From NCBI RefSeq assembly GCF_040359615.1, contig NZ_CP132942.1, forward strand, positions 3,410,001 to 3,474,000: DNA of 64,000 nt, in the 5' to 3' direction. The stretch is from Tunturibacter psychrotolerans. Lineage in GTDB: Bacteria > Acidobacteriota > Terriglobia > Terriglobales > Acidobacteriaceae. Positions 47,573-64,000 of this stretch are shown piece by piece; within the stretch, counting starts at the first letter, position 1, and every line of letters starts with the position of its first letter. Made by a program: the position numbers and the translations under genes. Under the pieces are notes generated by a model that was not told where the DNA came from, searched no databases, and was given only the letters and a program-made list of their open reading frames with translations.

Positions 47573-49194
47573 GGGATCACCTCGACGGCCGGCACAGCGT
47601 CGAGGTTTAACGTGGGCTTGTCGCCGACGTTAATCGTCACGGAACTTGCGCGATCGTCGAATGGAGACAGGCCACCGGGAGTGCGGTAGTCCACCGCGTG
47701 CTGCCGCTCAAACGCGATCGCCTTATAGCTTCCCGGCGGGAGATGAGCAAAGTTGTAGCTCCCCGTCGAGCTACTGCGGGTGTTGTAGTTCGCTTGCGCG
47801 CTCGGCCCGTTCGGAATCAAATAGACCCAGGCTGCTACGGGATTGCCGTTGAGCTTTGCCGCTCCTTGCAGACTGCCGGTCTCACTGCTGACAGTAATGC
47901 GAATCGGAATACCTGAGGCTCCTGGTGCGACAACGAGATTTTGCGTTAGTAAATCGGAGTCACCATAGCTGACAGACTTGATATACCAGGTGCCGCTGTT
48001 GCGACCTACCAATCGATAGTTGCCGGGCGGAGCCAGGAAGAAGAAAGTCTGATTGGGCTTGGACGACAGCCCCACTCCGGCGTACCCACCATCTGAATCG
48101 GCCTGTTCACTGTTCAGGACAAGTCCCAACTGGGACAGCCCCGGTGGAGTACCATCCGTATTCGAAGAGCCATCGACCACCAACTCCAGCGGAATTGATG
48201 GCACAGGAGAGAATCTTAAAACCACTCCGGAGATGTCGTGATCCGGAACCGTAATTGTGGTCTCGGCCATCTCGGCAGCATCTGCGTTTGCCATCAACCT
48301 CGCCGTCAACGTATACGTTCCCTGAGGTAGTTGAATCTTCGTCTCGTCGCCGTTGCCTGCGGTAGAGTTCACCTGTAAAGTGCCTCCATTGCTGGCGCGG
48401 GCAGAGATTCTCATGAAGCCTCGATCGGACCCGGAATGCGATATTCCGACCGTGTGCGTAGGGTTCACGGTCGGCCGGAGCTCAAAGTTTTCTTCCCCTC
48501 CACTGTGAATCCTGATTAGCTGTGACGTATCACCGGAGCTTATATTCGGAACCGCGACTGGTAGCACGGCTTCACCAATAGTGCGATCCCGCAGAATGTA
48601 GCGGGTTTGCAAGCGGTACTGGCCTGCTGGCACGGGGATTCTAAAACCTCCATGCGAGTCCGTTTGACCCTGGCCCACCGGCATCCAGCGACGCGCGGAA
48701 TCGTCGTAAACACTCCTCATCGCACTCACCGAAATACCCGAAAGTGGAGTTCCGTCGGGAGCCAACACTACGCCGGTGAGCAGCGCCTCCGGGTAGAGGC
48801 GAAGTTCAAGCGGTATCGCCAGTTGGGAGGATTGTAGATAAAGATTACCGGCATCACCGTACTCTGGGCTGGCATAAAACCCAGGTTTTGTTGCGAGGAT
48901 ATTCGCGTTGGTGTCGGTGTTCTGCTCGAACCTGAACTTACCCTCGCTATCGGTCAACACAGCTCGGTTATTGAGTCGAACCAGAGCTCTGCGAACGGGT
49001 TGGTCCGTGACGGCATTGATCACTCGACCAATTACCGAGTCCGGCGCGCCCGAAGACGCAACCAATGTGCCTGGTCCTGTACTAGTCTGGGCGCCGCAGG
49101 TGGCCTGGAGAGCGAGCAAGATACAAACTAGAGTTAGAAAGGCAGGTATCGAACCGTCGCGTGGGGAACGGCAAACGATTCGGTGTGGAGACAC
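47569..49194 (-). CDS. Secreted carboxypeptidase-regulatory-like domain protein (paired gene)
   Basis: A 541-residue protein with an export leader (GSIPAFLTLVCILLALQATC). Repeated carboxypeptidase-regulatory-like modules include DSVIGRVINAVTDQPVRRAL, ALLTGVVLAPDGTPLSGISV and GSLQGAAKLNGNPVAAWVYL. The last ends in FAHLPPGSYKAIAFERQHAV. It is the first of two similar genes that overlap by four bases, which suggests joint production of two related surface proteins. No enzymatic motif is visible. Its role is unknown. Confidence 0.82.
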   Translation of the reverse strand: MSPHRIVCRSPRDGSIPAFLTLVCILLALQATCGAQTSTGPGTLVASSGAPDSVIGRVINAVTDQPVRRALVRLNNRAVLTDSEGKFRFEQNTDTNANILATKPGFYASPEYGDAGNLYLQSSQLAIPLELRLYPEALLTGVVLAPDGTPLSGISVSAMRSVYDDSARRWMPVGQGQTDSHGGFRIPVPAGQYRLQTRYILRDRTIGEAVLPVAVPNISSGDTSQLIRIHSGGEENFELRPTVNPTHTVGISHSGSDRGFMRISARASNGGTLQVNSTAGNGDETKIQLPQGTYTLTARLMANADAAEMAETTITVPDHDISGVVLRFSPVPSIPLELVVDGSSNTDGTPPGLSQLGLVLNSEQADSDGGYAGVGLSSKPNQTFFFLAPPGNYRLVGRNSGTWYIKSVSYGDSDLLTQNLVVAPGASGIPIRITVSSETGSLQGAAKLNGNPVAAWVYLIPNGPSAQANYNTRSSSTGSYNFAHLPPGSYKAIAFERQHAVDYRTPGGLSPFDDRASSVTINVGDKPTLNLDAVPAVEVIP

Positions 49195-49340
49195 GAAGGG
49201 GCACCTCGCCAGAAATAAGACGTTCTCAACTCATATTAGTGAGAATGATGATGCTTCCACCACATTTCTGGCTGATCACTTTGGTTGATGGAGCCAAATG
49301 CACAAAACTCGAACGAAGAAGGTCAGGAGTTGCCGTTTCG

Positions 49341-49646
49341 TCAGCCTCTTTCAGATTCGGTCAGAGAGTTCGCATTGATCTTTGACAGGGATTCCAGGAG
49401 ATGTTTCGTATACAAACCGCTTGCTACAAACCTCGCTCCATCCTTCATCATCATCAGGAGTACCTGTTCGCCGTCTTTATCGATACACGTAACCTCGTCA
49501 AGATCGACGACACGATTCTGTGCTGGCCGACGATCTTGACTGACTCGCCAACTTTCGGTCAGATCCTTCAAAAACGATGATGTCATCCGGCCTTGAAGCA
49601 CCCACCGTTGCTCCGATGAATCCTCGGTCATCGTGATTCGTAACAT
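49341..49646 (-). CDS. STAS-domain protein (anti-sigma-factor-antagonist type)
   Basis: A 101-residue protein with the STAS fold pattern: a first strand-loop QRWVLQGRMTSSFLKDL, then RVVDLDEVTCIDKDGEQVLL and DGARFVASGLYTKHLLESL. STAS proteins commonly bind partner kinases or anti-sigma factors and are often switched by phosphorylation of a serine in the second strand; here the expected position has aspartate or cysteine (VTCIDKDG), so phospho-switching is doubtful. No kinase or sigma gene is adjacent. The sigma-54 activator gene on its right reads in the same direction. Confidence 0.72.
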   Translation of the reverse strand: MLRITMTEDSSEQRWVLQGRMTSSFLKDLTESWRVSQDRRPAQNRVVDLDEVTCIDKDGEQVLLMMMKDGARFVASGLYTKHLLESLSKINANSLTESERG

Positions 49647-49944
49647 CTTGCTCGTCCTTACAAACTGATGTGTCGGTGAGTGTTCTCCGGTCGCAAACTA
49701 CATGACTGGTTTCTCCGGTCTGGATTGCGAAGACCGAAGGCCGAGGCACAGTTTGCTCCCCAAGCTTCACTAACGTCCATCCTGTAATTCATTGCTGCTA
49801 GCAATCCGCATTCCTAAAATGCGATGAGTCTCTATCTTTGGTGGCAGGAGCTATTTACATCGACACATAACGTCGATGCTCTCGGAAGGCATGCCGGTAA
49901 GTTGGCAGCATGCCAAAGCGTTGGCACAAATACGGCGGTTTTCT

Positions 49945-52038
49945 TCAGGGTTTTCTGGGACGCGAGATTCCTAACTTCTGCATTCGAAACTGCAAGGTGG
50001 GACGCTTTAATCCGAGTCGTGCTGCAGCGCCATTCGGGCCTGCAAAAACCCAGTTAGTTTGCTCCAGTATAGATAAGATATGCTTCCGTTCGATCTCTTC
50101 CAGGGTCGTGGCTCCATTCGTTTGGATGCCCATTTCGGCGTTCTTCACCTTTAGGCCGTCCAGCGGCACCTGAAGTTCTGGGCCCTTCGATAAGATGACC
50201 GCCCGCTCGATGACATTTTGCAGCTCACGAATATTTCCAGGCCACGGATAGCCAACCATTGAATTCATAGTCTCGGTTGAAATAGTGTCAATCTCTTTAG
50301 ACATGTTGCGCGCAAAATGTTGGGCGAAGTGTCTCACCAGAAAGGGAATGTCTTCCTTGCGCTCTCTAAGGGGCGGGACATGAATGGGGAACACATTAAG
50401 TCGATAAAACAAGTCGGACCGAAAAATCTGTTCTTCCACCATCGCATTGAGATCGCGGTTTGTAGCTGCGATCAAACGTGCATCTGTGCGTAAGGTGCGC
50501 GAGCTTCCCAACCGTTCGAACTCTCGCTCCTGCAGGACGCGAAGCAGCTTCGGCTGGAGATCCAGTGGAATCTCACTCACTTCATCGAGAAAGATGGTCC
50601 CTTGCGATGCCAACTCGAATCGGCCCATTCTCTGAGCGATTGCGCCAGTAAATGCTCCTTTTTCATGCCCAAAGAGTTCGCTCTCCAGCAAACCGGTAGG
50701 AATCGCAGCGCAATTCAGCTTCACAAAGGGATGGGTGCGACGGCGGCTGAGGTTATGCACAGCACGAGCGATGAGTTCCTTTCCGCTTCCCGTCTCACCC
50801 TCAATAAGAACCGTTGAATTGGTAGGCGCAACTGCTTCGACTTGCCGCAGCACCTGTCGAAGCACAGCGCTGTTCCCAATTATCTCCTCGAAGTTGAGCT
50901 CGCTGCGAATCTCATCTTCAAGGTAGAGCTTCTCCTGCGTGAGTTTGTCTGAAAGCTCAGTAATGCGTCGATAGGCAAACGCATTGTCGATAGCAATAGC
51001 TACTTGACCTGCGATCTGCGAGAGAAACTCAACATCCTCCCGCATGAACGCGTTCTTCTGTGCCCTGACTAAACACAGGACGCCTAACACATTTCTGCAG
51101 CGAAGCAGCGGAAGCAAGCAGATACTCATCGAGTCCTCGCCGTGGCGAACGGTGTTGTCAAAACCCGATCGGCTCCATTCTTCAAGATCCCCAATCCAAG
51201 GCTTTCCGGAGCGAAAGACCTGCCCAGCGAGCGACCCTTCGAGCGGCTTCGACAGATCCTGTAGCAGCTCGCCTTTCCCATCTGGAAAATCCACCGCGTA
51301 AAGTTGAAGATGCTCAGCTGTTGCGTCGGGCAGAATCACCGCCACGCCTTGCAGTCGCATGGTCTTGCGAATATTTGGCGAAACTGAGCGGAGCATCTCA
51401 CCCAATTCCAGATTGGACACGACGCTATTGCTGAGATCGAGAAAAAGATTGAGCTTCGTTTGTTCGCTCTGTAGCTGAGCCCTGGCAGCCTCTGAGTGCG
51501 CGAGATTTAGCCTGTCATCAATTGCTAACCCGACATAATCCGCCAAGAAAAAGAGAAGGCTAACCTCTTTCTCAGAAAAACCGTCGTCTTGCTTCTTGGC
51601 AAAGCAGATAGCTCCCAGTCCACCGGATGATCCATTTAGAGGAAGGACGCAAAGCGAATGGTTTCCGTGGGCACGGAAGAATTGAAAGACGCCAGGAAAT
51701 CGAGCCTCCCGATCCAGCGACGTGACGAGCACTGGCTGCGGGTGTCCGGATAAAAACTCCTCTATTTCAGCTCGCCATTGTGGCAACTCGGGTTCGAGAT
51801 TGATTGTGAAGCCGTCAGCGTCGACCGCATACGCTGATGAATCGCCGCCAATCACATGAACCAAAGCGGTGGTATTTGAACCTGCAACGGAGGATAGTTC
51901 TGCAGGGAGGGAACGCAGGAGTTGCCCTGGATCGCGATAAACATCCAGGTTCCGCGCAAAGCGTAAGAGCACCTCGATCTCTTCGACGTGCGAGGTGCTA
52001 CCTTCCGAAGAAACACGGCGAAGAGGTGAACTCCTCAT
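49945..52038 (-). CDS. Sigma-54-dependent activator (GAF-GAF-AAA+-Fis)
   Basis: A 697-residue bacterial enhancer-binding protein. Two GAF-like sensor regions (roughly residues 20-170 and 180-350) precede the AAA+ domain with Walker A GETGSGKE at 415-422 and the sigma-54-contact loop GAFTGA at 461-466. A Fis-type helix-turn-helix closes it ([20 protein letters not shown], then [16 protein letters not shown]). The architecture resembles FhlA-type regulators. It diverges from the radical SAM operon, whose start has a -24/-12 promoter. The ATG at 52038 lies 13 bases after AAGGAGG; a longer frame to 52107 is possible. Confidence 0.9.
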
Positions 52039-52161
52039 ACCTGGCTGATAACCTCCTTTTCTTCCATCGATTTCTGATAGATGAAGATATGGGCGATAAG
52101 GTGGCAAGCTGTCACGACATTGGCGTGGAATTGGAAGTTTCGTTGGTTAGTTAGACGCCGC

Positions 52162-52177
52162 TGCCAACAATTTGGCA
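52162..52177. promoter_or_regulatory. Inverted repeat, probable activator binding site
   Basis: TGCCAA-CAAT-TTGGCA is a perfect 6-base-pair inverted repeat with a four-base spacer, about 115 bases upstream of the sigma-54 promoter. A Fis-type activator normally binds such upstream dyads. A related TGGCATGC word is repeated close by (52173 and 52192). Whether the divergent activator binds here is inference. Confidence 0.55.
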
Positions 52178-52288
52178 TGCAGTCAATACGCTGGCATGCG
52201 AATCTCCGTTCCAACCTCACTTATTTATGAACAAGGAATTTATCGCTTTATTATCAAATGCTTGCGGAACCAATAACTTCTGCGTTTT

Positions 52289-52306
52289 CTGGCAACAGGG
52301 TTGCTT
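52289..52306 (+). promoter_or_regulatory. Sigma-54 (-24/-12) promoter of the radical SAM operon
   Basis: CTGGCAACAGGGTTGCTT matches the sigma-54 consensus: TGGCA at 52290-52294, TTGCT at 52301-52305, with the conserved GG and GC exactly twelve bases apart. It lies 77-94 bases before the radical SAM start (52383), right for a leader of about 65 bases. The divergent gene encodes a sigma-54 activator. The site excludes the longer in-frame start at 52227. Confidence 0.78.
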
Positions 52307-52382
52307 ATGCGTTGGTGAGCAACGTCGGCTAGCTTTTCAAACCTTTCCACATACTAACCAGTGTCTTTATTTAGGGGGCTCG

Positions 52383-53669
52383 ATGCACCTGGAGGAACAC
52401 ACCGAACCACCGGCGAGCTTCAGGCTCGACGTCCCGCTGCATGATCTACTCACCAAACCCACCCCAAGCCTGCCAGGGTTACAACCCATCGGAACGCCGC
52501 AGACTTTTCCTGATCCCGTGTTTCCGCAACATCCCGAACTCATGGCGCCAATCGATTGGAATGATGCCTGGATTCCTCCGGAAAAGCGCAAATATAGACC
52601 GGGACAGATCTACCACGCGATGCAGGGGTGGCTCTTCCCCTATATCCGTTCAAGGGTGACAGAAGGCGACTTTCACCCGCTCATTTCCTACCTTTTTACC
52701 GAGTTCAAATGCAATCTCGACTGCCACTACTGCTGGGCTTTCGACAATAAAGTGAAGGGGATGAGTGAGGATACGGCCAAGCGATCGATCGATTGGCTTC
52801 ACGGCACTGGATGTAGGGTGCTCGCCTATATGGGCGGCGAACCTCTCCTCAGACCTGATTTGATCCAGCGCATTACCTACTACGCGGCCAAAAAGAACTT
52901 CTGGATCTATCTCCCAACGAACGCCCGCCTCTTGCGTACCGATGTCATCGACAAGTTGGCTGACGCCGGCATCTCTACCTTCAACATCGCCGTCGACGCG
53001 GTTGATTTGAAAGAAGGTCTACCGAAGGCGCTCGTCCCAATACGCAAGCAGTTCGACTACCTGGTGCGCAAGCAATACGGTTACGGCTATTCCGTGTTCC
53101 TCAACATCAATATCTGCCGAAACAACCTCGATGACGTTCGGCAGCTAACCGAAATAGCGCATGAGAACGGTATAGCCACGGATTATCACATCAACGAATC
53201 TCCCCTCCTCGAGCAAGACGAGCACTTCAAACACGCGGCCAACAATGTCACCTACATCACGAAAGACGATTGGCCAGTTGTGGAAGAGACGATTCAGTGG
53301 CTTACCGAAAAGCAGGACTCCGGATACAAGATGGTGAATTCAAACGCACGGCTTTGGCAGATGGTTGATTTCATGAAAGGGAATCACTTCCCCTGGAACT
53401 GCCGCGCCGGGCAAAATTCAATGATTATTCGCGTCGATGGAACCTTAGCACCGTGTTTCCCAATGTATACGGCAAGCTATGACTGGGGCGTGGTCGGCAA
53501 TCACAAATTCGAGACTAAGCAACTCGACCACCAGAAAAAGACTTGCCAGACCCACTGCTTTTCGACGCTTAACCATATCTTGGGCTGGTGCTACAACGAC
53601 CAGCGGGTCATCAAGTATTTCTTCAAACAGCTCGCGAACGGCTTCCAGGGAGCGAAAGGCCAGATGTAA
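52383..53669 (+). CDS. Radical SAM protein with SPASM-like C-terminal cysteines
   Basis: The 428-residue protein binds the catalytic cluster through C110-x3-C114-x2-C117 in FKCNLDCHYCWAF, followed by YMGGEPLLRPDL (SAM-binding GGE). The C-terminal part holds further cysteines (NCRAGQNSMIIRVDGTLAPC, then CQTHCFSTLNHILGWC) in a SPASM/twitch-like arrangement for auxiliary clusters. Such enzymes modify peptides, cofactors or small molecules using a radical; the substrate is unknown. The ATG at 52383 follows AGGGGG and lies just after the sigma-54 promoter. It is followed in 65 bases by the dehydratase-like gene, so it forms an operon with the activase genes. Confidence 0.87.
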   Translation: MHLEEHTEPPASFRLDVPLHDLLTKPTPSLPGLQPIGTPQTFPDPVFPQHPELMAPIDWNDAWIPPEKRKYRPGQIYHAMQGWLFPYIRSRVTEGDFHPLISYLFTEFKCNLDCHYCWAFDNKVKGMSEDTAKRSIDWLHGTGCRVLAYMGGEPLLRPDLIQRITYYAAKKNFWIYLPTNARLLRTDVIDKLADAGISTFNIAVDAVDLKEGLPKALVPIRKQFDYLVRKQYGYGYSVFLNINICRNNLDDVRQLTEIAHENGIATDYHINESPLLEQDEHFKHAANNVTYITKDDWPVVEETIQWLTEKQDSGYKMVNSNARLWQMVDFMKGNHFPWNCRAGQNSMIIRVDGTLAPCFPMYTASYDWGVVGNHKFETKQLDHQKKTCQTHCFSTLNHILGWCYNDQRVIKYFFKQLANGFQGAKGQM

Positions 53670-53734
53670 CGCCGAGCGATTCCCAATCATCGACACGATA
53701 AAAAAAACGACCTAGTAAGCATAAGGAGATGCAA

Positions 53735-55522
53735 ATGCCGGGAACCGAAGAGATCGTTCAGACAGCCTTCGAAGTAGAGATTCAGGCTCGTATCGACGCC
53801 GAACGTGCACGTCTTCGCGCTGAAGCTGGTTTGGCACGTATGCGCGAATTCAAGAAGCCGGTTGAGCGAACGTTCACTGCGAATGAGCGCGACTATGTCA
53901 CGATTCTCTTTGGTGGCCTCACATGGAAACATGAGGAGATGATCAAAGCCGTATTTCACGGCAGTGGCTATCGGTGTGAAAACATTCCCACGCCGGTGGT
54001 TGCCGATTTTCAGGCCGGGAAGGAGTTCGGCAACAACGGCCAATGCAACCCGACCTACTTTACTGTGGGCAATCTAGTTCGTCATCTTCAAATGCTCGAA
54101 CAGCAGGGCCAGACTCGTAAACAAATTATCGACAACTACGTCTTCTTCACGGCCGGTTCCTGCGGTCCGTGCCGATTCGGTATGTATGAAGCAGAGTACC
54201 GATTTGCCCTCCAGAACGCAGGCTTCGACGGTTTTCGCGTTTTGTTGTTTCAGCAAACGGATGGCATCAAGGCTGCGAGCGGTGAGCCTGGCCTGAAGTT
54301 TTCGGTCGACTTCGGCATGGGGATGCTGAATGCGCTCAACCTCGGAGATGTCATCAATGAGCTGGCATACCAGGTGCGTCCGTTTGAGGTTAACAAAGGA
54401 GAGACCGATCGAGTAATTCACGACTCCGTGAAGACGTTGACTGATACGCTCCGCGACCGCAAGCGCTGGCACATTGTGGATGCGGCACCGACGTGGGCCA
54501 AACCTTATCTCGAGAAGAGTGGAAAGCTCGCAGGCATCAGCTGCACACTCGGGAAGATCGGTCACAACCTATACGGCAAGGAATATTTGGATGCACTTCA
54601 TACTTGTCGCGACAGTATCAATGCAATCGAAGTGGACCGTCTACGTGTCAAGCCGGTCATCAAGATCACAGGCGAATTCTGGGCGCAGACAACGGAAGGC
54701 GACGGCAACTTCAACATGTTTGCCTTCCTCGAGAAGGAAGGTGCGCAAGTCTTGGTTGAACCGATCGCTACTTGGATCGCCTATATGATGTACGTCGCCA
54801 AAGAAGGCGCGAAGGCCCGAGCGGACGCGGAGGCTCCCTATCGCGATCCCAAGTGGTATGAGCTGAAGAAGCGTCTTGCAAACGACTTCAAAGTCTTCAA
54901 GAAGACTGGAGGCCTGAGCGCCGGTAGCGCCATGTGGAACTTCTTCTATCACCGCACGATCAAACATATGGGAGACACAGCCCACCACCTAATTCCGCAG
55001 AAGGAGCTCTCCCGTCTGGCGCATCCCTTCTACCATCAACTCGCCCGCGGTGGTGAGGGTTATATGGAAGTCGGCAAGAACGTCTATTACACCGTGAATC
55101 ACCTGTGTCACATGGTTCTTGCTCTGAAGCCTTTCGGCTGCATGCCATCCACGCAATCCGACGGAGTTCAGTCCCGAGTCGTGAACAAATACAAAGACAT
55201 GATCTTCCTGCCGGTTGAGACCTCAGGCGAGGGTGAAGTGAACGCGCATAGCCGGGTCCAGATGGCGCTAGCAGAGGCGAAGGCGAAGGCGCGCGCAGAG
55301 TTTGACGGTGTACTGCAGGAGACAGGAAAGTCTCTCGAAGAGTTGCGAGACTACGTCGATCAGCATCCGGCTCTCAAACAAGCGCTTTACAAGGTACCGC
55401 ATCGGAAAGGTCTTGCCGGGACCGCTGCACAGTTCGCGTGGCATGTGAGCGAGTTGATCGACAAAGATGGTGCCTATCGTCGCTCAACTCGGGTCTCCGC
55501 ACGGTTACAGCGAGTCGCGTAG
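53735..55522 (+). CDS. 2-hydroxyacyl-CoA-dehydratase-like protein (HGD family, activase-associated)
   Basis: A 595-residue protein with cysteines typical of the HgdB-related, CoA-activase-associated family: C104 in GQCNPTYF and C143-x2-C146 in GSCGPCRFGMYE. These ligate an iron-sulfur cluster in relatives. No signal peptide. In many bacteria this segment is fused to a large activase; here it is a separate gene directly before the activase. The second ATG (53735) has AAGGAG six bases upstream and is chosen over the one at 53729. The enzymatic reaction is unknown; such proteins usually receive electrons at very low potential from an ATP-driven activase. Confidence 0.82.
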   Translation: MPGTEEIVQTAFEVEIQARIDAERARLRAEAGLARMREFKKPVERTFTANERDYVTILFGGLTWKHEEMIKAVFHGSGYRCENIPTPVVADFQAGKEFGNNGQCNPTYFTVGNLVRHLQMLEQQGQTRKQIIDNYVFFTAGSCGPCRFGMYEAEYRFALQNAGFDGFRVLLFQQTDGIKAASGEPGLKFSVDFGMGMLNALNLGDVINELAYQVRPFEVNKGETDRVIHDSVKTLTDTLRDRKRWHIVDAAPTWAKPYLEKSGKLAGISCTLGKIGHNLYGKEYLDALHTCRDSINAIEVDRLRVKPVIKITGEFWAQTTEGDGNFNMFAFLEKEGAQVLVEPIATWIAYMMYVAKEGAKARADAEAPYRDPKWYELKKRLANDFKVFKKTGGLSAGSAMWNFFYHRTIKHMGDTAHHLIPQKELSRLAHPFYHQLARGGEGYMEVGKNVYYTVNHLCHMVLALKPFGCMPSTQSDGVQSRVVNKYKDMIFLPVETSGEGEVNAHSRVQMALAEAKAKARAEFDGVLQETGKSLEELRDYVDQHPALKQALYKVPHRKGLAGTAAQFAWHVSELIDKDGAYRRSTRVSARLQRVA

Positions 55523-55572
55523 TCGGCGGCTGCAGCTTTTGTCCACCACCTGGAAGTCGCGGAGGAAACGGG

Positions 55573-58500
55573 ATGCAGGAATTTCTGGTAGGCCTGGATG
55601 TAGGTTCTACAACTGTTAAGGCGATTGTGGTCGATGCCGCGTCCGACAAGACCATCTGGCAGGACTATCAACGTCACGAGACCCGCCAACCAGAAAAAGT
55701 TCTCGAATTTCTGCGCCGCATGGAAGCTGACACGGGCATCTCTCCCGCAAATACACGTATCTTTATTACGGGATCAGGCGGTGGAACAATCGCTGAGATG
55801 GTCGGCGCAAAGTTTGTCCAGGAGGTTCACGCCGTCTCGCTCGCGGTCGAGAAGCTGCACCCTGAGGTGTACTCCGTCATTGAATTAGGCGGTCAGGACG
55901 CGAAGATCATCGTCTTTAAAGACGACGAAGAGACGGGGCGTAAGAAGAAGATCCCATCGATGAACGACAAGTGTGCCGGCGGAACCGGAGCGGTCATCGA
56001 CAAGATCAACGCCAAGCTAAAAATTCCTGCTGTAGAACTCGCGAACCAGGGATATCACGATATCAAGCTCCATAAAGTAGCAGGGAAGTGCGGAGTCTTT
56101 GCTGAGACCGACATCAATGGTCTGCAGAAAACCGGAACGCCGCCCGACGAATTGATGGCCTCGCTCTTCGAAGCTATCGTGTTGCAAAATCTCAGTGTCC
56201 TCACCCGCGGACACACGCTGCGTCCTCACGTTCTACTGCTCGGCGGCCCGAATGGCTTTATTCGTGGCATGCGCGAGGCGTGGCAGACCAACATCCCGCG
56301 CATGTGGAAAGAGCGCAAGGTCGAGATTCCCGAGGGCATGGCCCCAGAAGACTTGATTAAAGTTCCTGACAACGCTCAATACTTTGCGGCGCTCGGATCG
56401 GTGGAGTTCGGTAAGGAAGAAGAGCCGGAAGTCGGGCACTATCTTGGTGTCGAAAAACTTCTCTACTACATTGATTACGGCCGTGCAGAGGAGAAGGCCA
56501 TCTCTGGCGGCAAAGGACTTGTCGCCGAAGACGCGGAGCTCGTTGCCTTCAAGTCCGCTTACAAGAAAAAGAAATTCCTCCCTGCAGAGTTCTTTCCTGG
56601 CCAAGTCGTCTCAGGTTTTGTCGGCATCGACGGCGGATCCACCTCCACCAAGGCAGTCGTCCTGGGGAAAGAAGGAGAGATTCTTTGCAAAACCTACCAG
56701 CTCTCTAACGGCAATCCGATTCAAGATACGATCGAGATGTTCGAGCAGTTGCGAGAGCAGATCGAGAGTAAAGGTGCAACTCTCGAGGTGCTTGGCGTTG
56801 GCTCGACGGGCTATGCAAAGGACATCATCAAGGATGTGTTGAACGCCGATGTGGCCCTCGTTGAAACCGTCGCCCACACCGAGTCTGCGCTGAAATTCTA
56901 CGACGACCCTCACGTCATCGTCGATGTTGGTGGGCAGGACATCAAGCTTATCGTTCTCAAAGACGGTCGCGTAAAAGACTTCAAACTGAACACACAGTGC
57001 TCGGCAGGAAATGGGTACTTCTTGCAGTCGACTGTAGAAGGATTTGGCCTGAAGGTGGAGGAGTTCGCCGATCTCGCCTTCTCCGCTAAATCCATGCCAT
57101 CCTTCGGATATGGATGCGCGGTTTTCATGCAGTCCGACATCGTTAACTTTCAGCGTCAAGGTTGGCGATCGGAGGAGATCCTGGCGGGTCTCGCAGATGT
57201 GCTACCCAAGAATGTATTCCTCTATGTCGCTAGTATTCCCAATCTCGCGGCGCTCGGATCGCGTTTCGTGCTTCAGGGGGGCACTCAGAATAATCTCGCC
57301 GTGGTCAAGGCCGAGGTAGATTTCATCAAGTCGAGTTTCCGCGCTAACGGTAAAGAGCCGGAGATTATCGTTCACGAACACTGCGGTGAGTCCGGCGCGA
57401 TCGGCGCGGCCCAGGAAGCTTTGCGTCTATGGCGCAATGGTCGGCAAACCACATTTGTCGGTCTCGAAGCAGTCGCTAACATACGCTATCGCACCACACG
57501 AAACGAAGACACACGCTGCTACTTCTGCAAAAACAATTGTCTGCGCACCTTCATCGATGTCGATGTGACGGGGCAACAAAACTCTGAACATAAGCACATT
57601 CACGCCGTCGATGAAGATCGTGCCGCTACTCCCGCAGAGGTTGCACAAGTACTCAACACGTTGCCTGCACTCGAACATATCCAAGCCAATCTTCCTCCCG
57701 TCGAATCTCACGGGTCCTGCAGCACGGGCGGGAGTCAGACCTCTCCATCCGTGTTCAAAGCAAAGATAGAGCCGCTCGTTCAGATCCAGCTCACGCCCGG
57801 ATCAAACAAGATTGTCGAACTGCCAAAGCCAGTCGAATTCCAGCCCCGCAAGACCAAGGTTCCTCTCCGAAAAGGCGAACAGCGCCTCATCATCGCGACC
57901 TGTGAAAAGGGAACTGTGGAAGACCTCGACGAGATGAAGGACATCAAAGCTGATATCGACGAGATCAAAGCCGTCAATCCAAACTTCGTCGATATTGCGG
58001 CCCATGATGTCTTCCGTCAGCGTGAGGTCGAACTCGTTGCGGATGCCCTGCCAATTACCAAGGGTCTCTTCATCTCGAAAGCGACGAAGGAGCGGGCCTC
58101 ACGGATGACGCAACGCAAAGACTTTCGTGTGGGGATCCCGCGTCTCTTAAACACATACACCTACGCTCCGTTCTTCAACGCATACTTTGCCAGCCTCGGA
58201 CTGAAGTCAGAAAACATTATTTACTCTGACTACACGACACCGGAGCTATATCGCGCGGGCGCTAGCCGGGGTGCCATTGATCCCTGCTATCCGTCAAAGA
58301 TCGGTATTGCACACGTCTACAACCTGCTTGCGGTCAAGCATGCGAAGAAACCTCTTAATGCGATCTGGTTCCCAATGTACGACGTCCTGCATTCGCACCT
58401 TGTAAACCTCACTGGTTCAAACGCTTGTCCGACTGTGACTGCAACGCCTGAGACGGTCAAGGCTGCATTTATGAAAGAGAGCGATATCTTTGCCGAGAAC

Positions 58501-59286
58501 AACGTACTCTACATCGATCCGATCCTGAACCTCCAGGATGAAAGGCTCTGTGCCGATCAGATGTTCAAGACCTGGGGCCCCATTCTGGGCCTCGCCCGCG
58601 AGGAAAATGAGAGGGCCATCGCCGTCGGCTTCAAATCTTTGCAGGAGTGCGAAGCCGAAATTCGCCGACAGGCGCGAGAGACCCTCGATCAACTCGAACG
58701 CGAAGACCGCATCGGTATTGTCATGCTTGGCCGTGTCTACCATCACGACCCCGGCCTGAATCACGAGATCATGGAGGAGTTTCAAAAACTGGGTTACCCC
58801 GTATTCTCACAGAGCACGTTGCCTCTCGACGAAGATTTGTTGGACCGTCTCTTCGGTGACGAAGTTCGAGCTGGTCTAATCACACATCCACTTGACATCA
58901 GCGATGTATGGAAGAATCGTTATTCGACCAGCACCAATCACAAAGTATGGGCGGCGAAGTTCACAGCACGCCACCCGAATCTTGTTGCTCTCGAGGTCTC
59001 GAGCTTCAAGTGCGGCCACGATGCTCCAATCTACGGGGTCATAGAAGGAATCATCGAACAATCGGGCACGCCCTACTTCTCGTTCAAGGATTTGGATGAA
59101 AACAAACCCTCCGGTTCTATCCGCATCCGTGTGGAGACAATCGACTACTTCCTACGTCGCTATCGCGAGGACATCGTTAAGCGACGCACAGCTGAAGTGG
59201 GTATCGAAGCTCAACTTGCGGCCTTCGAACAATCACTTCGAACTCAGGCAGGGAATTCCTACGAGATGGCAGTGGCAGGAGACTAG
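55573..59286 (+). CDS. Double-ASKHA CoA-enzyme activase with DUF2229-type domain
   Basis: A 1237-residue protein with two BadF/BadG-type ATPase domains, at about 3-280 (GLDVGSTTVKAIVVD, ELGGQDAKIIVF) and 350-630 (FVGIDGGSTSTKAVVL, DVGGQDIKLIVL). Each keeps a cysteine pair 39 residues apart, C134/C173 and C476/C515, the spacing of the cluster ligands in the HgdC activase. A short cysteine motif C649-x2-C652-x3-C656 follows. The rest is the DUF2229-like domain with C905 in DPCYPSKIG and C1147 in FKCGHDAP. It should use ATP to drive electrons at very low potential to a partner. ATG at 55573 follows GGAGG. Confidence 0.88.
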   Translation: MQEFLVGLDVGSTTVKAIVVDAASDKTIWQDYQRHETRQPEKVLEFLRRMEADTGISPANTRIFITGSGGGTIAEMVGAKFVQEVHAVSLAVEKLHPEVYSVIELGGQDAKIIVFKDDEETGRKKKIPSMNDKCAGGTGAVIDKINAKLKIPAVELANQGYHDIKLHKVAGKCGVFAETDINGLQKTGTPPDELMASLFEAIVLQNLSVLTRGHTLRPHVLLLGGPNGFIRGMREAWQTNIPRMWKERKVEIPEGMAPEDLIKVPDNAQYFAALGSVEFGKEEEPEVGHYLGVEKLLYYIDYGRAEEKAISGGKGLVAEDAELVAFKSAYKKKKFLPAEFFPGQVVSGFVGIDGGSTSTKAVVLGKEGEILCKTYQLSNGNPIQDTIEMFEQLREQIESKGATLEVLGVGSTGYAKDIIKDVLNADVALVETVAHTESALKFYDDPHVIVDVGGQDIKLIVLKDGRVKDFKLNTQCSAGNGYFLQSTVEGFGLKVEEFADLAFSAKSMPSFGYGCAVFMQSDIVNFQRQGWRSEEILAGLADVLPKNVFLYVASIPNLAALGSRFVLQGGTQNNLAVVKAEVDFIKSSFRANGKEPEIIVHEHCGESGAIGAAQEALRLWRNGRQTTFVGLEAVANIRYRTTRNEDTRCYFCKNNCLRTFIDVDVTGQQNSEHKHIHAVDEDRAATPAEVAQVLNTLPALEHIQANLPPVESHGSCSTGGSQTSPSVFKAKIEPLVQIQLTPGSNKIVELPKPVEFQPRKTKVPLRKGEQRLIIATCEKGTVEDLDEMKDIKADIDEIKAVNPNFVDIAAHDVFRQREVELVADALPITKGLFISKATKERASRMTQRKDFRVGIPRLLNTYTYAPFFNAYFASLGLKSENIIYSDYTTPELYRAGASRGAIDPCYPSKIGIAHVYNLLAVKHAKKPLNAIWFPMYDVLHSHLVNLTGSNACPTVTATPETVKAAFMKESDIFAENNVLYIDPILNLQDERLCADQMFKTWGPILGLAREENERAIAVGFKSLQECEAEIRRQARETLDQLEREDRIGIVMLGRVYHHDPGLNHEIMEEFQKLGYPVFSQSTLPLDEDLLDRLFGDEVRAGLITHPLDISDVWKNRYSTSTNHKVWAAKFTARHPNLVALEVSSFKCGHDAPIYGVIEGIIEQSGTPYFSFKDLDENKPSGSIRIRVETIDYFLRRYREDIVKRRTAEVGIEAQLAAFEQSLRTQAGNSYEMAVAGD

Positions 59287-59452
59287 TTTTCGCGAGTGTC
59301 CACTCTCGCCAACCTAGAGATATGAACCCTAACGCTTGGTGCCAGTCACCGTTGGTATGCTGGCCGTGAATTGGTTAGCGCGATTCTCTAAACATAGTTG
59401 CACTTTCCAATATAAGGATGCCCGTGAAAGGATGGGGCATTCAGGTATAGGC

Positions 59453-60127
59453 ATGTCGACGAAGACAAGAATTGAATCGCGCGTGGGTGCTATTGTTCTG
59501 GCTGCCGGCAGTTCCAGCCGCATGGGAGAAGCAAAGCAGCTTCTCCCATTGGCCGACAGTACCGTACTTGAGCGAACGCTTGGAAATCTTATTGGCTCCA
59601 ACGTCGATGAGATTGTTCTTGTACTCGGCTCCTCGGCGGAGACGATCCGCGAACGGCTTGCAGAGTCGTCCACGAGACAACTGAGAATACTCGTGAATCC
59701 CGACTATGGTCAGGGAATGGCAACGTCACTACGGGCTGGGTTGGCCGTCTTGGATAAGAACATAAAAGCCGCGCTGATCGTGCTGGCGGATCAGCCATTC
59801 GTTCGGACGAAAACGTTCGATCGAATTATCGATCAATATCGACGATCCGATGCACAGATCGTGATCCCGATGTTTCAGGGTTTTCGCGGCAATCCTGTTC
59901 TTTTGGATCGTTCTGTCTTCCTTGAGGTTATGGCGCTTCGAGGAGATATCGGCTGCCGAGCGATCTTTGGGAATCACTTGGACAGGATAGTCAAAGAAGA
60001 AGTAAACGACGTAGGGATTCTCCTCGACATCGATAATAAGGACGACTACGAGCGACTTCGAGATTTCGGGCCGCTAGGGCCGCCTCCATCGTGGTTAGCA
60101 ATGAAACTACGACACTCCGCTTCCTAG
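59453..60127 (+). CDS. MobA/MocA-like nucleotidyltransferase
   Basis: A 224-residue protein with the molybdopterin nucleotidyltransferase pattern: LAAGSSSRMGEAKQLL (nucleotide-binding loop), VNPDYGQGMATSLRAGL and LADQPFVRTKTFDRI. MocA-type enzymes attach CMP to molybdopterin for xanthine-oxidase-type enzymes. It follows the activase gene after a gap of about 166 bases in the same direction, so it may be the last gene of the sigma-54 operon or a separate gene; no molybdoenzyme is encoded nearby. The ATG at 59453 gives a normal N-terminus; a longer open frame reaches to 59336. Confidence 0.82.
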   Translation: MSTKTRIESRVGAIVLAAGSSSRMGEAKQLLPLADSTVLERTLGNLIGSNVDEIVLVLGSSAETIRERLAESSTRQLRILVNPDYGQGMATSLRAGLAVLDKNIKAALIVLADQPFVRTKTFDRIIDQYRRSDAQIVIPMFQGFRGNPVLLDRSVFLEVMALRGDIGCRAIFGNHLDRIVKEEVNDVGILLDIDNKDDYERLRDFGPLGPPPSWLAMKLRHSAS

Positions 60128-60133
60128 AAACTA

Positions 60134-62374
60134 TCATTCGCGACTCGTCGTTACGGGCTCTCTCCGTGCCGTGGCGAGGCCGCCCGGCCACCAGTTCCAA
60201 TCGCCTGCGATACGAAGGAGCGCGGGACCTATCACGATACGTACAAGTGTCGCGTCGATGAACACGGCAATCGCCAACGTAAATCCGATCATCTTGACCA
60301 CCAGGAAATCTCCAATGGTGAAGGCCGCAAAGACCACGATCATGATTGCGGCGGCGCTCGTAATTAGGCCTGCGGTTCTAGCCATGCCCTCTGGAATCGC
60401 ATCCATTTCACTGAGCCCGCTCCTTCTGGCTTCGAGAACGCGTGCGACCAGAAATACCTCATAGTCCATGCTTAATCCGAAGACGATGGCAAAGGCGACG
60501 ATCGGAACAAGTGGAAACACGCTACCGGTTCCCCCAGGAACTCCCAGGAACCTGCTTCCGTGTCCGTCTTGGAAGACGAAAACTAATGCTCCGAAGGAGG
60601 CCGCGACCGACAGCAGGTTGAGTGCAATGGCCTTTAGGGCTGCGAAGATTGATCGAAAGCCACAGAGCAATGCAAGGAGCGTTCCCCCTACTACCAGCGC
60701 CGTTACCGACGGAAAGCGGTCTTTGATGATCGTTTCATAATCGGCGTTGAGTGCCGGGATGCCCCCGACGAGAAGGGTCGCTCCAGGCACGCCTGTGAGA
60801 GCTGGCGCGCCGGTCTTCCGAAGCTCCCGCACCCAAGTCACCTGGTCACGTAGGGAGACCGAACCCTTGGGTATCAGCTCAAGCAGCGCCGCCCGTCCGT
60901 CACTACTCAGAAACGTTCGACGCGTCTCTCGTGAGAGGCCATTAAGGGAAGACTGGTTGCCCTCCGCAAGCGTAGTGATAGAAATCACCCGGTCACAGCG
61001 AGGGTCGCTTGCGAGCCGCTTTGTGAGACGATCGAGCACATTCCACCCCGCGTCGGTTTGAGCGATGGAATCCGTTGGAAGTTCGACGATGACGCGCAGC
61101 GATTCAACAACGCCGTCTCGATCCATCTGTTCGAGGGTGTTGAGCGCATGGACTGATTCCGCTGTCTTCGGAAGCCAATCCCCTCTGGGGAGACTGGTAT
61201 CCAGGTGTCTGGCCTGCCAGGCGAGCAAAAGCAAAGGAGTTCCTGCCACCAGGAGGGCAATCCAAGGATGCGCGACGATCACTTTCCCCCAGCGGCGCCA
61301 GCGGTCTCCCGTACGCGCGGCCCGATCGGCATCCAGCTTTGGAGTAAAGGGTAATCGGCCAAGGTTGATCCGGGTACCGAGTAAGGCCAAGACCGCCGGA
61401 ACGAGGGTATTCGTAAGCAACACACTCATTCCTGCCACCAGGAATCCCGCGATACCGATGGAACGGATTTCGCTGATCGGAACCGTCAGGAGGGCTAGAA
61501 ATCCAATGGCTACCGTTGATGCTGAAATCAATAGCGTGTGACCTGCCTGACGTGCCGCGATGACCGATGCCTCGGGTCCGCTGTGCCCGGCGGAGATCGC
61601 TTCGCGAAAGCGGCTGACCATGAGGAGCGCGTAGTCGATTCCCAGGCCCAGGCCAAGCATGGTGGCTAAATTCTGAACCAGAATGGACAAGTGCCAACGC
61701 TGGGCCAGCAAACCCGTAATCGCCAGTGTGGTCGCAATCGCAAGCTGGCCGACCGCCAATGGAATGAAGGCGGCCATCAGGCTTCCAAAAGCCAATAGAA
61801 GAAGTGCGAGCGTCGCGGGGATCACCAGCCTTTCGCCCCGTTGCACGTCGGCGGCGCTGGCTTTGCGGATGTCAAAATTCAGCGGAATTTCGCCTGTAAG
61901 CTCGAGCTTCACCGCCGGATAACGGCCGCGCAGTTGATTTTCTAGAGAGCTCGCCAGCTGGTGAAGTTTCGGGACAAGCGACTCCACCGGGCCGTCGGAC
62001 GAGGTGAGGCCCACCAGAACAAACGTTCCCCCTCCCCGGCCCAGAAAGATCGGATCTCGCAGGTCGAGGTAGGACACTACTCCTGAAACGCCGGGTTGAT
62101 CTTTCAGTCCTGCCGCGATGACATCTAACGCTTTCCCGCCTGCATCTGTGTCCGCTGGTGGAAGTCCCTGGATCACCAGGACCACACGGTCCACAAATGG
62201 CGACCGAAAACGATCGGCCAGCTCCTGCCGGACCGTCTCAGCCTGGCTCCCTTCGACACGGGTTGCGGTCTCCAGGTGGCGCTCTGCGTGAAAAGAGAAG
62301 GGAAGAAGTGCAATGGCTGCTGCCAAAACGATCCCCGACACCCAAAAACGGCGCACATGCATAGCATTGATCAT
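60134..62374 (-). CDS. MMPL/RND-superfamily membrane exporter
   Basis: A 746-residue, roughly 12-helix protein of the MMPL type. One helix (VSGIVLAAAIALLPFSFHAE) precedes a large extracytoplasmic loop, then a block of helices with LGLGLGIDYALLMVSRFREA, where the GIDYALLMVSR motif contains the conserved proton-relay aspartate and tyrosine. The second half repeats it (IVFGLSMDYEVFLVARVLEA). Such proteins export lipids, hopanoids or drugs. It is convergent with the nucleotidyltransferase gene, ending six bases later. The start at 62374 (or 62362) is chosen; frames that begin at 62728 overlap an opposite gene and lack a leader. Confidence 0.85.
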   Translation of the reverse strand: MINAMHVRRFWVSGIVLAAAIALLPFSFHAERHLETATRVEGSQAETVRQELADRFRSPFVDRVVLVIQGLPPADTDAGGKALDVIAAGLKDQPGVSGVVSYLDLRDPIFLGRGGGTFVLVGLTSSDGPVESLVPKLHQLASSLENQLRGRYPAVKLELTGEIPLNFDIRKASAADVQRGERLVIPATLALLLLAFGSLMAAFIPLAVGQLAIATTLAITGLLAQRWHLSILVQNLATMLGLGLGIDYALLMVSRFREAISAGHSGPEASVIAARQAGHTLLISASTVAIGFLALLTVPISEIRSIGIAGFLVAGMSVLLTNTLVPAVLALLGTRINLGRLPFTPKLDADRAARTGDRWRRWGKVIVAHPWIALLVAGTPLLLLAWQARHLDTSLPRGDWLPKTAESVHALNTLEQMDRDGVVESLRVIVELPTDSIAQTDAGWNVLDRLTKRLASDPRCDRVISITTLAEGNQSSLNGLSRETRRTFLSSDGRAALLELIPKGSVSLRDQVTWVRELRKTGAPALTGVPGATLLVGGIPALNADYETIIKDRFPSVTALVVGGTLLALLCGFRSIFAALKAIALNLLSVAASFGALVFVFQDGHGSRFLGVPGGTGSVFPLVPIVAFAIVFGLSMDYEVFLVARVLEARRSGLSEMDAIPEGMARTAGLITSAAAIMIVVFAAFTIGDFLVVKMIGFTLAIAVFIDATLVRIVIGPALLRIAGDWNWWPGGLATARREPVTTSRE

Positions 62375-62492
62375 GTCATACAAGATCGTTGTCACTGAAG
62401 CTCCGGGTATCGTTTGTATACACTTGCGCAGGACGGGCCTAAGATAGCTTTCTGAATTTGCTAAACTCTTCCCCGTCAGCTTAGGAGGATCA

Positions 62493-63272
62493 ATTCGTAC
62501 CCTACTGTTGCTTGCACTTCTTGTCGGTATCCAGCCTGGAGGGGCAGACCCTCGCGTTGGCTCCTGGACGCTCATCTCCGCGCAGTCCAGTCTGGATCCT
62601 CCGAATCGGCTGTCCATTACACCTCTCAAAGACGGGGCGCATGTAGTCATGTCTGGCGAAACCCATCTCGATTTCACTGCGAATTGGAATGGACACGAAT
62701 CGTCCGCACCGGGCAATCTCGGGTTCAATCAAATTGGGCTGCGCAGGATTGATAAGAGGCAGGCGGAGGTCAAAGAAAAAAAAGATGGGACTACTGTTGC
62801 GACGGTTCGGGAAAAAATCTCGAATGATGGAAATGAGCTAACGACCACGACTTCGGCTACGGGCAAAGCCGATCAGATCACGGTGTGGACGCGAAGCGGA
62901 GGCGCGAAGGTCGCCAATAACCTCTTCGCAGGCGAGTGGACGCAAGATCTCAGTAAGACCCGTTTGCGGCAGGGTTCGGCGCTGAAAATCGAGCCGGACG
63001 GAAGCGGCGGGATCCGTTTTCTGGGCGATTTCAGCTATACCGCCCGCTTTGACGGAAAGCAATACGACCTGAAGAACTCGCGCAACGATACCGTGACCCT
63101 TGAACTTATCGATCCGCACACGGTGGACGCGATCTACCGACGGGACAACCAAGTCACTCAAAAGGACAGGTGGGTAATTTCCGCAGACGGGCAGCAGATG
63201 ACACTATCCACCGCTGGCACGTTAGAAACGGGCCAGCGGGTAACTGAGAAGCTCTTGTTTAAGAAGCAGTAG
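62493..63272 (+). CDS. Exported protein of unknown function, probable ATT start
   Basis: A protein of about 259 residues. Reading from ATT at 62493 gives a textbook Sec signal (RTLLLLALLVGIQPGGADP), and AGGAGG lies at 62483-62488, only four bases before it. The next in-frame start, TTG at 62508, would cut the leader's charged end. The mature part is beta-rich, with repeated PLKDGAHVVMSGE-like and LFAGEWTQDLSKTRLRQGSA segments, and no recognised domain. Its end overlaps the stop region of the convergent reductase gene by 14 bases. A role cannot be assigned. Confidence 0.68.
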   Translation: MRTLLLLALLVGIQPGGADPRVGSWTLISAQSSLDPPNRLSITPLKDGAHVVMSGETHLDFTANWNGHESSAPGNLGFNQIGLRRIDKRQAEVKEKKDGTTVATVREKISNDGNELTTTTSATGKADQITVWTRSGGAKVANNLFAGEWTQDLSKTRLRQGSALKIEPDGSGGIRFLGDFSYTARFDGKQYDLKNSRNDTVTLELIDPHTVDAIYRRDNQVTQKDRWVISADGQQMTLSTAGTLETGQRVTEKLLFKKQ

Positions 63273-64000
63273 CGGATAATGCATCTGGTAACGCTTCGGA
63301 GCAGTCCAGAATTGGATTGCCCCGTGGCACCTCGTCTGCCTCGCGAGGAGCGATCGAGATGATCCCCTTGCGATGCATGAATTTCAAAATGCCGTTGACC
63401 GTATCTTCCAGCGACGGATCCGCTTTGCCCCACACGGAGGCATCCCGGGCCATCTGATAAGAAGAGTTGTCATAGCGTTTGAACTCCATCGCTGAGATGT
63501 TGTCGACAGAGCCGACCAGAAAATCCAGTAGCGGGAAGAGAAGATCTTCCTTGCGGCATCTCCGGATTAGTTCGGGAACGAAATCGGGAAGGCTGTATGC
63601 TTCGAATTGCCGGCCAGTCGCCTGGGTAATCAGCCCAGTGATATCCATCATGTTGGAATAGTCGTCGCGCACGATGTGGTATGTCTTGTTCGCTGTGCCG
63701 GGTGTGGTGGAGATCGCAACGATGTTGTTCGCCACGATGTCGGCCGGAACAAAGCTGACCTGATTGAGTGTATCGACGCCAATGCCGTGGTTGACCATAA
63801 AAGCAACCAACCGAACAGCGATATCGAAGTTGTTGCCTCCTCCTGTGACCGAGGGGCTGACGAGAGCCGGTCGGAAGACACGCGCAGAAAGTCCCCGTCT
63901 GCGGGCGTCGAAGACCACCTGTTCCGCTACCCATTTCGATTGGCTGTAGCCGAAATCGAGAAGCTCCATGTCTTCGTTATGGTCGGTTTCATAGAGGACC
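63259..64000 (-). CDS. Thioester-reductase/male-sterility-like NAD-binding protein (partial)
   Basis: The last 247 codons of a gene that continues beyond the right edge. The extended short-chain-dehydrogenase catalytic motif YSQSKWVAEQ is visible, followed by RGLSARVFRPALVSPS and VDTLNQVSFVPADIVANNIV, and the end reads LMHRKG-type KFMHRKGIISIAPREADEVP. This is the C-terminal part of thioester reductase domains found in carboxylic acid reductases, NRPS release modules and fatty-acyl reductases. Only the reductase end is in the window, so whether adenylation and carrier domains precede it is unknown. It converges on the secreted-protein gene with a 14-base overlap. Confidence 0.82.
   Translation of the reverse strand, partial: VLYETDHNEDMELLDFGYSQSKWVAEQVVFDARRRGLSARVFRPALVSPSVTGGGNNFDIAVRLVAFMVNHGIGVDTLNQVSFVPADIVANNIVAISTTPGTANKTYHIVRDDYSNMMDITGLITQATGRQFEAYSLPDFVPELIRRCRKEDLLFPLLDFLVGSVDNISAMEFKRYDNSSYQMARDASVWGKADPSLEDTVNGILKFMHRKGIISIAPREADEVPRGNPILDCSEALPDALSATAS

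Follow-up and report, generated by a model that had tools for sequence, protein, structure and literature searches.

A sigma-54-linked operon of Tunturibacter psychrotolerans pairs a radical SAM gene with a putative split ester reductase of the PlsA/Ger type

The DNA analysed here is a 64,000-nucleotide stretch of Tunturibacter psychrotolerans (NZ_CP132942.1; genome 5.64 Mb, 2 contigs), referred to below as the window, and the system in question occupies its positions 49,945–60,127. An earlier note on this DNA described an activator gene diverging from a −24/−12 promoter that leads into genes for a radical S-adenosylmethionine (SAM) enzyme, an HgdB-like protein and a double activase; this gene set is real, with all four genes present as annotated (Pfam) and the promoter seen in the window. 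Loci that were read are numbered with L and genomes of relatives with G. The genes are:

49945..52107, minus strand: sigma-54 activator, GAF-GAF-AAA+-Fis (Pfam), probable start at ATG 52038, 697 amino acids (aa).
52383..53669, plus strand: radical SAM protein, 428 aa; PF04055; core C110/C114/C117 plus C340, C358, C388 and C392.
53729..55522, plus strand: HgdB-like reductase subunit, 597 aa; putative Red2/PlsR equivalent with a BCR/HAD-like (benzoyl-CoA reductase/2-hydroxyacyl-CoA dehydratase) model.
55573..59286, plus strand: double activase with DUF2229, 1237 aa; putative Act1-Act2-Red1 equivalent; 2 x PF01869, PF09989.

Gaps of 59 bp and 50 bp separate the radical SAM gene from the HgdB gene and the latter from the double activase gene, respectively, and ATG 52383 is the preferred start of the radical SAM gene because the −24/−12 site (52290–52305) falls inside the longer open reading frame (ORF) from 52227. 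The activator carries two GAF stretches, Sigma54_activat and a Fis-type helix-turn-helix; this is the GAF-AAA+-Fis order of the FhlA/NifA-type activators, and an FhlA-type model covers its residues 72–716, although it falls below curated cut-offs and the operator proposed for it here is TGCCAA-N4-TTGGCA. A search of the whole genome returned a single DUF2229 match, which is the double activase of the window.

The plasmalogen synthase PlsA/PlsR is encoded by an operon in C. perfringens and by a single gene in Enterococcus, Lactococcus and Listeria; Ger, the glycerol ester reductase, is found in T. maritima (Tmari_0479) and D. alkenivorans. PlsA/PlsR is described as two activase and two reductase modules (PMC12838417), and the window set has the same four. 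They are colinear in single-chain homologues of ~1410–1525 aa (Act1-Act2-DUF2229-HgdB), to whose C-terminus the window HgdB protein aligns; these long proteins had been considered the only Ger/PlsA candidates of the phylum, an idea that was dropped once they proved to be a fused version of these modules. Fourteen alignment columns are Cys in 11/11 split and 12/12 PlsA/single-chain rows, in an alignment that left out L106 (a long branch in the tree) and whose rows, like those of the tree, include no experimentally validated Ger or C. perfringens PlsA, with Listeria PlsA identified by literature only. These cysteines are residues 134, 173, 476, 515, 649, 652, 656, 777, 905, 952 and 1147 of the activase and C106, C148 and C471 of HgdB, and they may pair to hold [4Fe-4S] clusters. 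The window HgdB protein also matches the separate PlsR-type protein of Fusobacterium (20% identity, E 9e-12, a single comparison). Ger is likened to the window set by description and domains rather than by direct sequence comparison: both have two PF01869 activation domains, as a report on alkyl-ether makers describes (PMC13274423), and T. maritima also has a DUF2229 match, but the window set consists of two genes.

Other features distinguish the window proteins from PlsA/PlsR: they are 22–31% identical to the single-chain rows, the HgdB gene stands first rather than last, a radical SAM gene adjoins, and a sigma-54 activator takes the place of the TetR-like regulator that precedes the E. faecalis gene (PMC9702350). 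The same review states that Listeria plsA/plsR orthologues appear active in anaerobic growth, in line with L. monocytogenes plasmalogens (PMC9702350). Judged by anatomy, the HgdB-like protein and double activase probably constitute a split, order-reversed relative of PlsA/PlsR/Ger. The system had been thought to lack a named relative, which does not hold, since PlsA/PlsR and Ger have the same four modules and the 14 cysteines are shared by PlsA-type rows; the existence of an already named pathway with this gene set, which the earlier note said would count against its reading, is thus borne out in part. Within the accessible portions of the open-licence literature, no recognised link of a radical SAM gene or of sigma-54 to PlsA/Ger was found. 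As a separate observation, one Collinsella replicon (L235 and L236) holds two PlsA-type genes from different tree clades, each with a TetR-type regulator gene adjoining.

The radical SAM protein has a CxxxCxxC core (C110/C114/C117) which, together with C340, C358, C388 and C392, is invariant in 19 diverse rows, and its predicted model is nearest to BlsE, SkfB and PqqE. With the Tes/Mss lipid-coupling enzymes it shares the radical SAM core: Tes is its best PDB sequence match (E 3e-6, core only). This match, and the linkage of the gene to reductase genes, would fit an enzyme in the membrane-spanning coupling (Mss/Tes) role within an operon that builds whole tetraethers. A Tes-type homologue elsewhere in the genome, however, matches Tes at 5.7e-61 over residues 92–586; the coupling role was rejected for the operon protein and is considered very improbable.

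Conservation of the set was followed through an HgdB alignment scan of named species genomes, in which 498 places were confirmed and the best 80 of these were taken as loci; the set of 80 is biased to near relatives because only the best were taken, so the absence from it of Solibacter usitatus carries no meaning. The closest named HgdB relatives among the matches listed are Edaphobacter and kin. An activase match occurs in 74/80 loci, and a radical SAM match of at least 150 bits lies beside HgdB or activase in 24/80, always on the same strand and with gaps up to 1070 bp. It leads in 16 of these 24 loci (5/16 being loci with no activase match), follows the activase in 5 and lies between HgdB and activase in 3. 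Of the 56 loci without it, half (28) extend for 1.8 kb or more on each side, and the other 28 have shorter flanks. The coupling of activase to radical SAM suggested earlier is therefore conserved linkage, in three gene orders. A MobA-like gene, proposed as a further member, was found in 0/80 loci at E 1e-8, many of which have short flanks; MobA/MocA was rejected as part of the system and is regarded as a bystander.

Co-occurrence was scored in 100 genomes of the Acidobacteriaceae (cut-offs E 1e-100 for activase and E 1e-60 for radical SAM) and in 297 of the Acidobacteriota (E 1e-60 and E 1e-40, respectively). In the family, activase is present in 39 genomes and radical SAM in 27, all of them within the 39 (Fisher test 2e-15, uncorrected for relatedness); the two genes lie within 6 kb of each other in 14/27, and a Tes-type homologue is present in 88/100. 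Across the phylum, 25 genomes have the radical SAM gene, 30 the activase and 11 both, the activase count including G102 and G228, which have only a single-chain homologue (33%), and G155, which has a fragment. The radical SAM link is therefore strong in the Acidobacteriaceae and loose outside. The G155 fragment (L084; G155:C1:693991-696231), from a genome of the same genus, keeps only the last ~750 activase residues, with no HgdB or radical SAM gene in the 19 kb read, and looks like a decaying remnant.

These distributions bear on the idea that the radical SAM protein does not act on lipid and instead matures the reductase, a small peptide or a cofactor. In favour are the SPASM-type peptide maturases, SkfB among them, that figure among its closest folds, and its presence in genomes outside the family that have no activase. 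Also in favour, the space separating HgdB from activase is taken up in four loci (L115 10786–11004, L116 10791–11018, L117 9764–9949, L118 10776–10964) by small ORFs of 61–75 aa whose N-terminal stretch looks hydrophobic by eye. No ORF of at least 30 aa, however, is found in the gaps between set genes of the window, G233 or Edaphobacter aggregans, and 12/39 activase genomes have no radical SAM gene, which is therefore not needed for the reductase in general. A maturase role is rated somewhat unlikely.

Branched glycerol dialkyl glycerol tetraethers (brGDGTs) are ether lipids that serve as proxies for past temperature and pH, the so-called fossil thermometers. Among the best 80 loci is one from E. 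aggregans DSM 19364, which we take to be the strain used in published brGDGT cultures; its gene order is radical SAM, HgdB, activase (L182), and the only DUF2229 match in its genome is the activase of this row. Three reports state that E. aggregans makes brGDGTs, and more of them at low oxygen (PMC13274423, PMC8941075, PMC10087280); one of these notes that Solibacter usitatus is without ElbD and proposes PlsAR homologues for its ether formation (PMC10087280). By analogy, the window set may carry out an ATP-driven reduction of glycerol esters to ethers.

The pair could alternatively be a BCR/HAD reductase for a small coenzyme A (CoA) ester or another substrate and not a lipid enzyme. The HgdB protein has a predicted BCR/HAD-like model (HgdB/D-component fold, accompanied by an ASKHA activase) whose nearest solved structures are of the 2-hydroxyacyl-CoA dehydratase, benzoyl-CoA reductase and double-cubane reductase types, and the activase domains match benzoyl-CoA reductase models, all below cut-off. 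In contrast to the BCR/HAD and double-cubane enzymes (3o3m, 8s02, 6eno, 9g87), however, the window activases are fused in tandem with DUF2229; the architecture and 14 cysteines fit the fused double-activase PlsA type, which acts on lipids according to the literature, and no DUF2229 system other than this pair was found in E. aggregans. A small CoA ester or other non-lipid substrate is judged unlikely.

Transcriptional control of the operon was approached through its upstream region, which holds:

52162..52177, no strand assigned: palindromic operator TGCCAA-N4-TTGGCA, operon side, ~130 bp upstream of the −12 box; within the footprint of 4 loci.
52181..52196, plus strand: second operator half, AGTCAATACGCTGGCA; its GTCAAT-like and GCTGGCA letters are kept in the footprint.
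52290..52305, plus strand: putative −24/−12 promoter of the operon, TGGCAACAGGGTTGCT, GG-N10-GC, one mismatch.

Exact TGCCAA-N4-TTGGCA occurs at 2 places in the whole genome (49911 and 52162), both adjoining the activator gene, and 0 times in a backwards control. The footprint was defined by an intergenic alignment of 4 loci with a divergent activator (window, G233, L115 and L116; mean identity 57%), in which the block TGCCAA-N4-(T/C)TGGCA ... GTCAAT-like ... CTGGCA and a TGGC-N8-TGC element are kept; one half of the operon-side palindrome is CTGGCA in L115 and L116. Activator orthologues of at least 62% identity also diverge from the radical SAM gene in G359 and G329, which were read after the footprint was defined: the palindrome is present in both, exact in G329 and with a CTGGCA half in G359, and its relaxed form arose in 9 and 3 of 5000 shuffles. 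The radical SAM gene is preceded by a GG-N10-GC element that is perfect in G329 (TGGCACGCCAGTTGCA) and has 3 mismatches in G359, so that this element is found in 6/6 activator-bearing loci with 0, 1, 1, 1, 3 and 3 mismatches (weak in two); shuffled window intergenic regions contained a −24/−12 site with up to 3 mismatches in 10% of cases and with up to 1 mismatch in 0.55%. RpoN is present in 4/4 genomes searched.

The palindrome is absent from 7 loci without an adjoining activator (E. aggregans, G325, G334 and L117–L120; the relaxed pattern was sought over 500 bp in the first three, and L120 holds only ~1.1 kb upstream), and a −24/−12 site with up to 2 mismatches is missing in 6/7 of them, G325 having one. 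In G007, no −24/−12 site turned up ahead of HgdB even when as many as 3 mismatches were allowed. A first scan had returned a site with up to 2 mismatches in 4/27 loci, three with the activator and one without (L137); the plain −24/−12 scan was dropped as promoter evidence, its matches being at chance level. The sigma-54 control by the divergent activator that was proposed earlier thus gains comparative support from operators and promoter alike, and the activator is predicted to bind the TGCCAA-N4-TTGGCA sites. E. aggregans has no activator beside its operon, a statement about the neighbourhood only, as no genome-wide activator search was made there. Oxygen limitation, suggested by the published E. 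aggregans cultures, is a guess at the signal; FNR-like boxes were found neither in L182 5000–6000 nor in window 49000–53000. The notion of myxobacterial ElbB as a sigma-54 activator proved wrong, ElbB being described in PMC9131029 as a HAD-like phosphohydrolase.

Two observations concern the activator-bearing genomes. G233 has two copies of the exact palindrome, one of them at the operon; the other, at a different site (L220 1501–1600, G233:C1:2093777), overlaps a perfect −24/−12 consensus (TGGCACTCTGATTGCA) followed by an ORF resembling an OmpA-type lipoprotein. Two sets seem to be present in G329: in one, the radical SAM gene adjoins the activase on C25 (66%), and in the other an 83% identical radical SAM gene, truncated where the contig ends, adjoins the activator on C48 (L275, G329:C48).

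The analysis shows directly which genes are present, which cysteines they share, the class of fold predicted, how the genes are linked and co-occur, and that operators and promoter are conserved; clusters, reaction, substrate, radical SAM role, activator binding and signal are inferred from these results, and the following scheme is proposed. ATP hydrolysis in the fused activase pair would send low-potential electrons through [4Fe-4S] clusters to the DUF2229/HgdB pair, at which a membrane glycerolipid would have its ester carbonyl reduced to a vinyl or alkyl ether; in the Acidobacteriaceae the reductase would thereby supply ether bonds of brGDGT-type lipids. The Tes-type enzyme encoded elsewhere would join the chains, and the operon radical SAM protein would belong to this lipid pathway too, where it may complete or modify the ether chain. 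The GAF-AAA+-Fis activator would bind the tandem sites and drive sigma-54 transcription of the operon. The low-potential electron system envisaged earlier is supported in its activase/BCR-HAD kind; of the “reductive or cofactor-building pathway” the first half, as lipid reduction, is favoured and cofactor building appears less likely.

A split PlsA/Ger-type glycerol ester reductase with a radical SAM partner in the same lipid pathway, under a sigma-54 switch, is given a probability of about 0.6, and the ether-lipid function is the best-supported reading, though unproven. Two results weigh against it. The split proteins form their own clade on a long branch (100/100 support, 24-row tree), apart from Listeria, Fusobacterium, Collinsella, Acetoanaerobium, Haliovirga and Subdoligranulum and from the acidobacterial single-chain proteins, and are therefore PlsA/Ger-like by anatomy yet outside the sampled PlsA clade; and 14/25 radical SAM genomes across the phylum have no activase. 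Little is known about which soil bacteria can make brGDGTs and what triggers their synthesis. If the ether-lipid reading is true, the gene set marks ether-bond capacity in the Acidobacteriaceae (activase in 39/100 genomes vs. a Tes-type homologue in 88/100), a radical SAM enzyme is added to the ether-lipid pathway, and the sigma-54 switch has a testable signal. A broader proposal, tentative and with the odds leaning against it, is that Acidobacteria possess an ether-lipid machine of their own, in which a split and reversed ester reductase is joined by a dedicated radical SAM enzyme for completing or modifying the ether chain and which is sigma-54-switched in some lineages, and that its patchy presence, against the near-universal Tes-type gene, decides which soil acidobacteria make brGDGTs and when.

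On the other side of the activator gene lies a small STAS-like gene, which the activator probably also drives:

49341..49646, minus strand: small STAS-like protein, 101 aa; probable second activator target.
49800..49815, minus strand: candidate −24/−12 promoter of the STAS-like gene, AGGAATGCGGATTGCT, GG-N10-GC, 3 mismatches.
49892..49907, minus strand: second tandem operator upstream of the STAS-like gene, TGCCAACTTACCGGCA; recognisable in the window, G233, L115 and L116.
49911..49926, no strand assigned: palindromic operator TGCCAA-N4-TTGGCA, STAS side; 1 of the 2 exact places in the genome.

The STAS_2 matches are weak and below cut-off (E 0.013 in the window, 0.003–0.044 in three relatives). 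Tandem operators lie upstream of the gene in the window, G233 and L116 and are degenerate in L115; G329 has tandem palindromes downstream of its activator gene, where none were found in G359. The promoter site is almost the same in G233, sites with 2 mismatches occur in L115 and L116, and G007, where a STAS-like relative flanks the gene set (L064 13234–13554), has a perfect one (TGGCACCTATATTGCA).

Beside the operon (window 60134–62728 and 63259–63999, continuing to L248 1259–7702) lie an MMPL transporter, a 1110-aa protein that is fatty-acyl AMP ligase-like by eye with a C-terminal reductase domain (NAD_binding_4), a desaturase-like ORF and a P450-like ORF (both by eye); a relative of the MMPL protein (76%) adjoins the activase in L142. 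Unlinked to the window, a series of six PF04055 (radical SAM) matches, with methyltransferase-like ORFs (by eye) between them, occurs at G000:C1:3135245-3146265 (L225).
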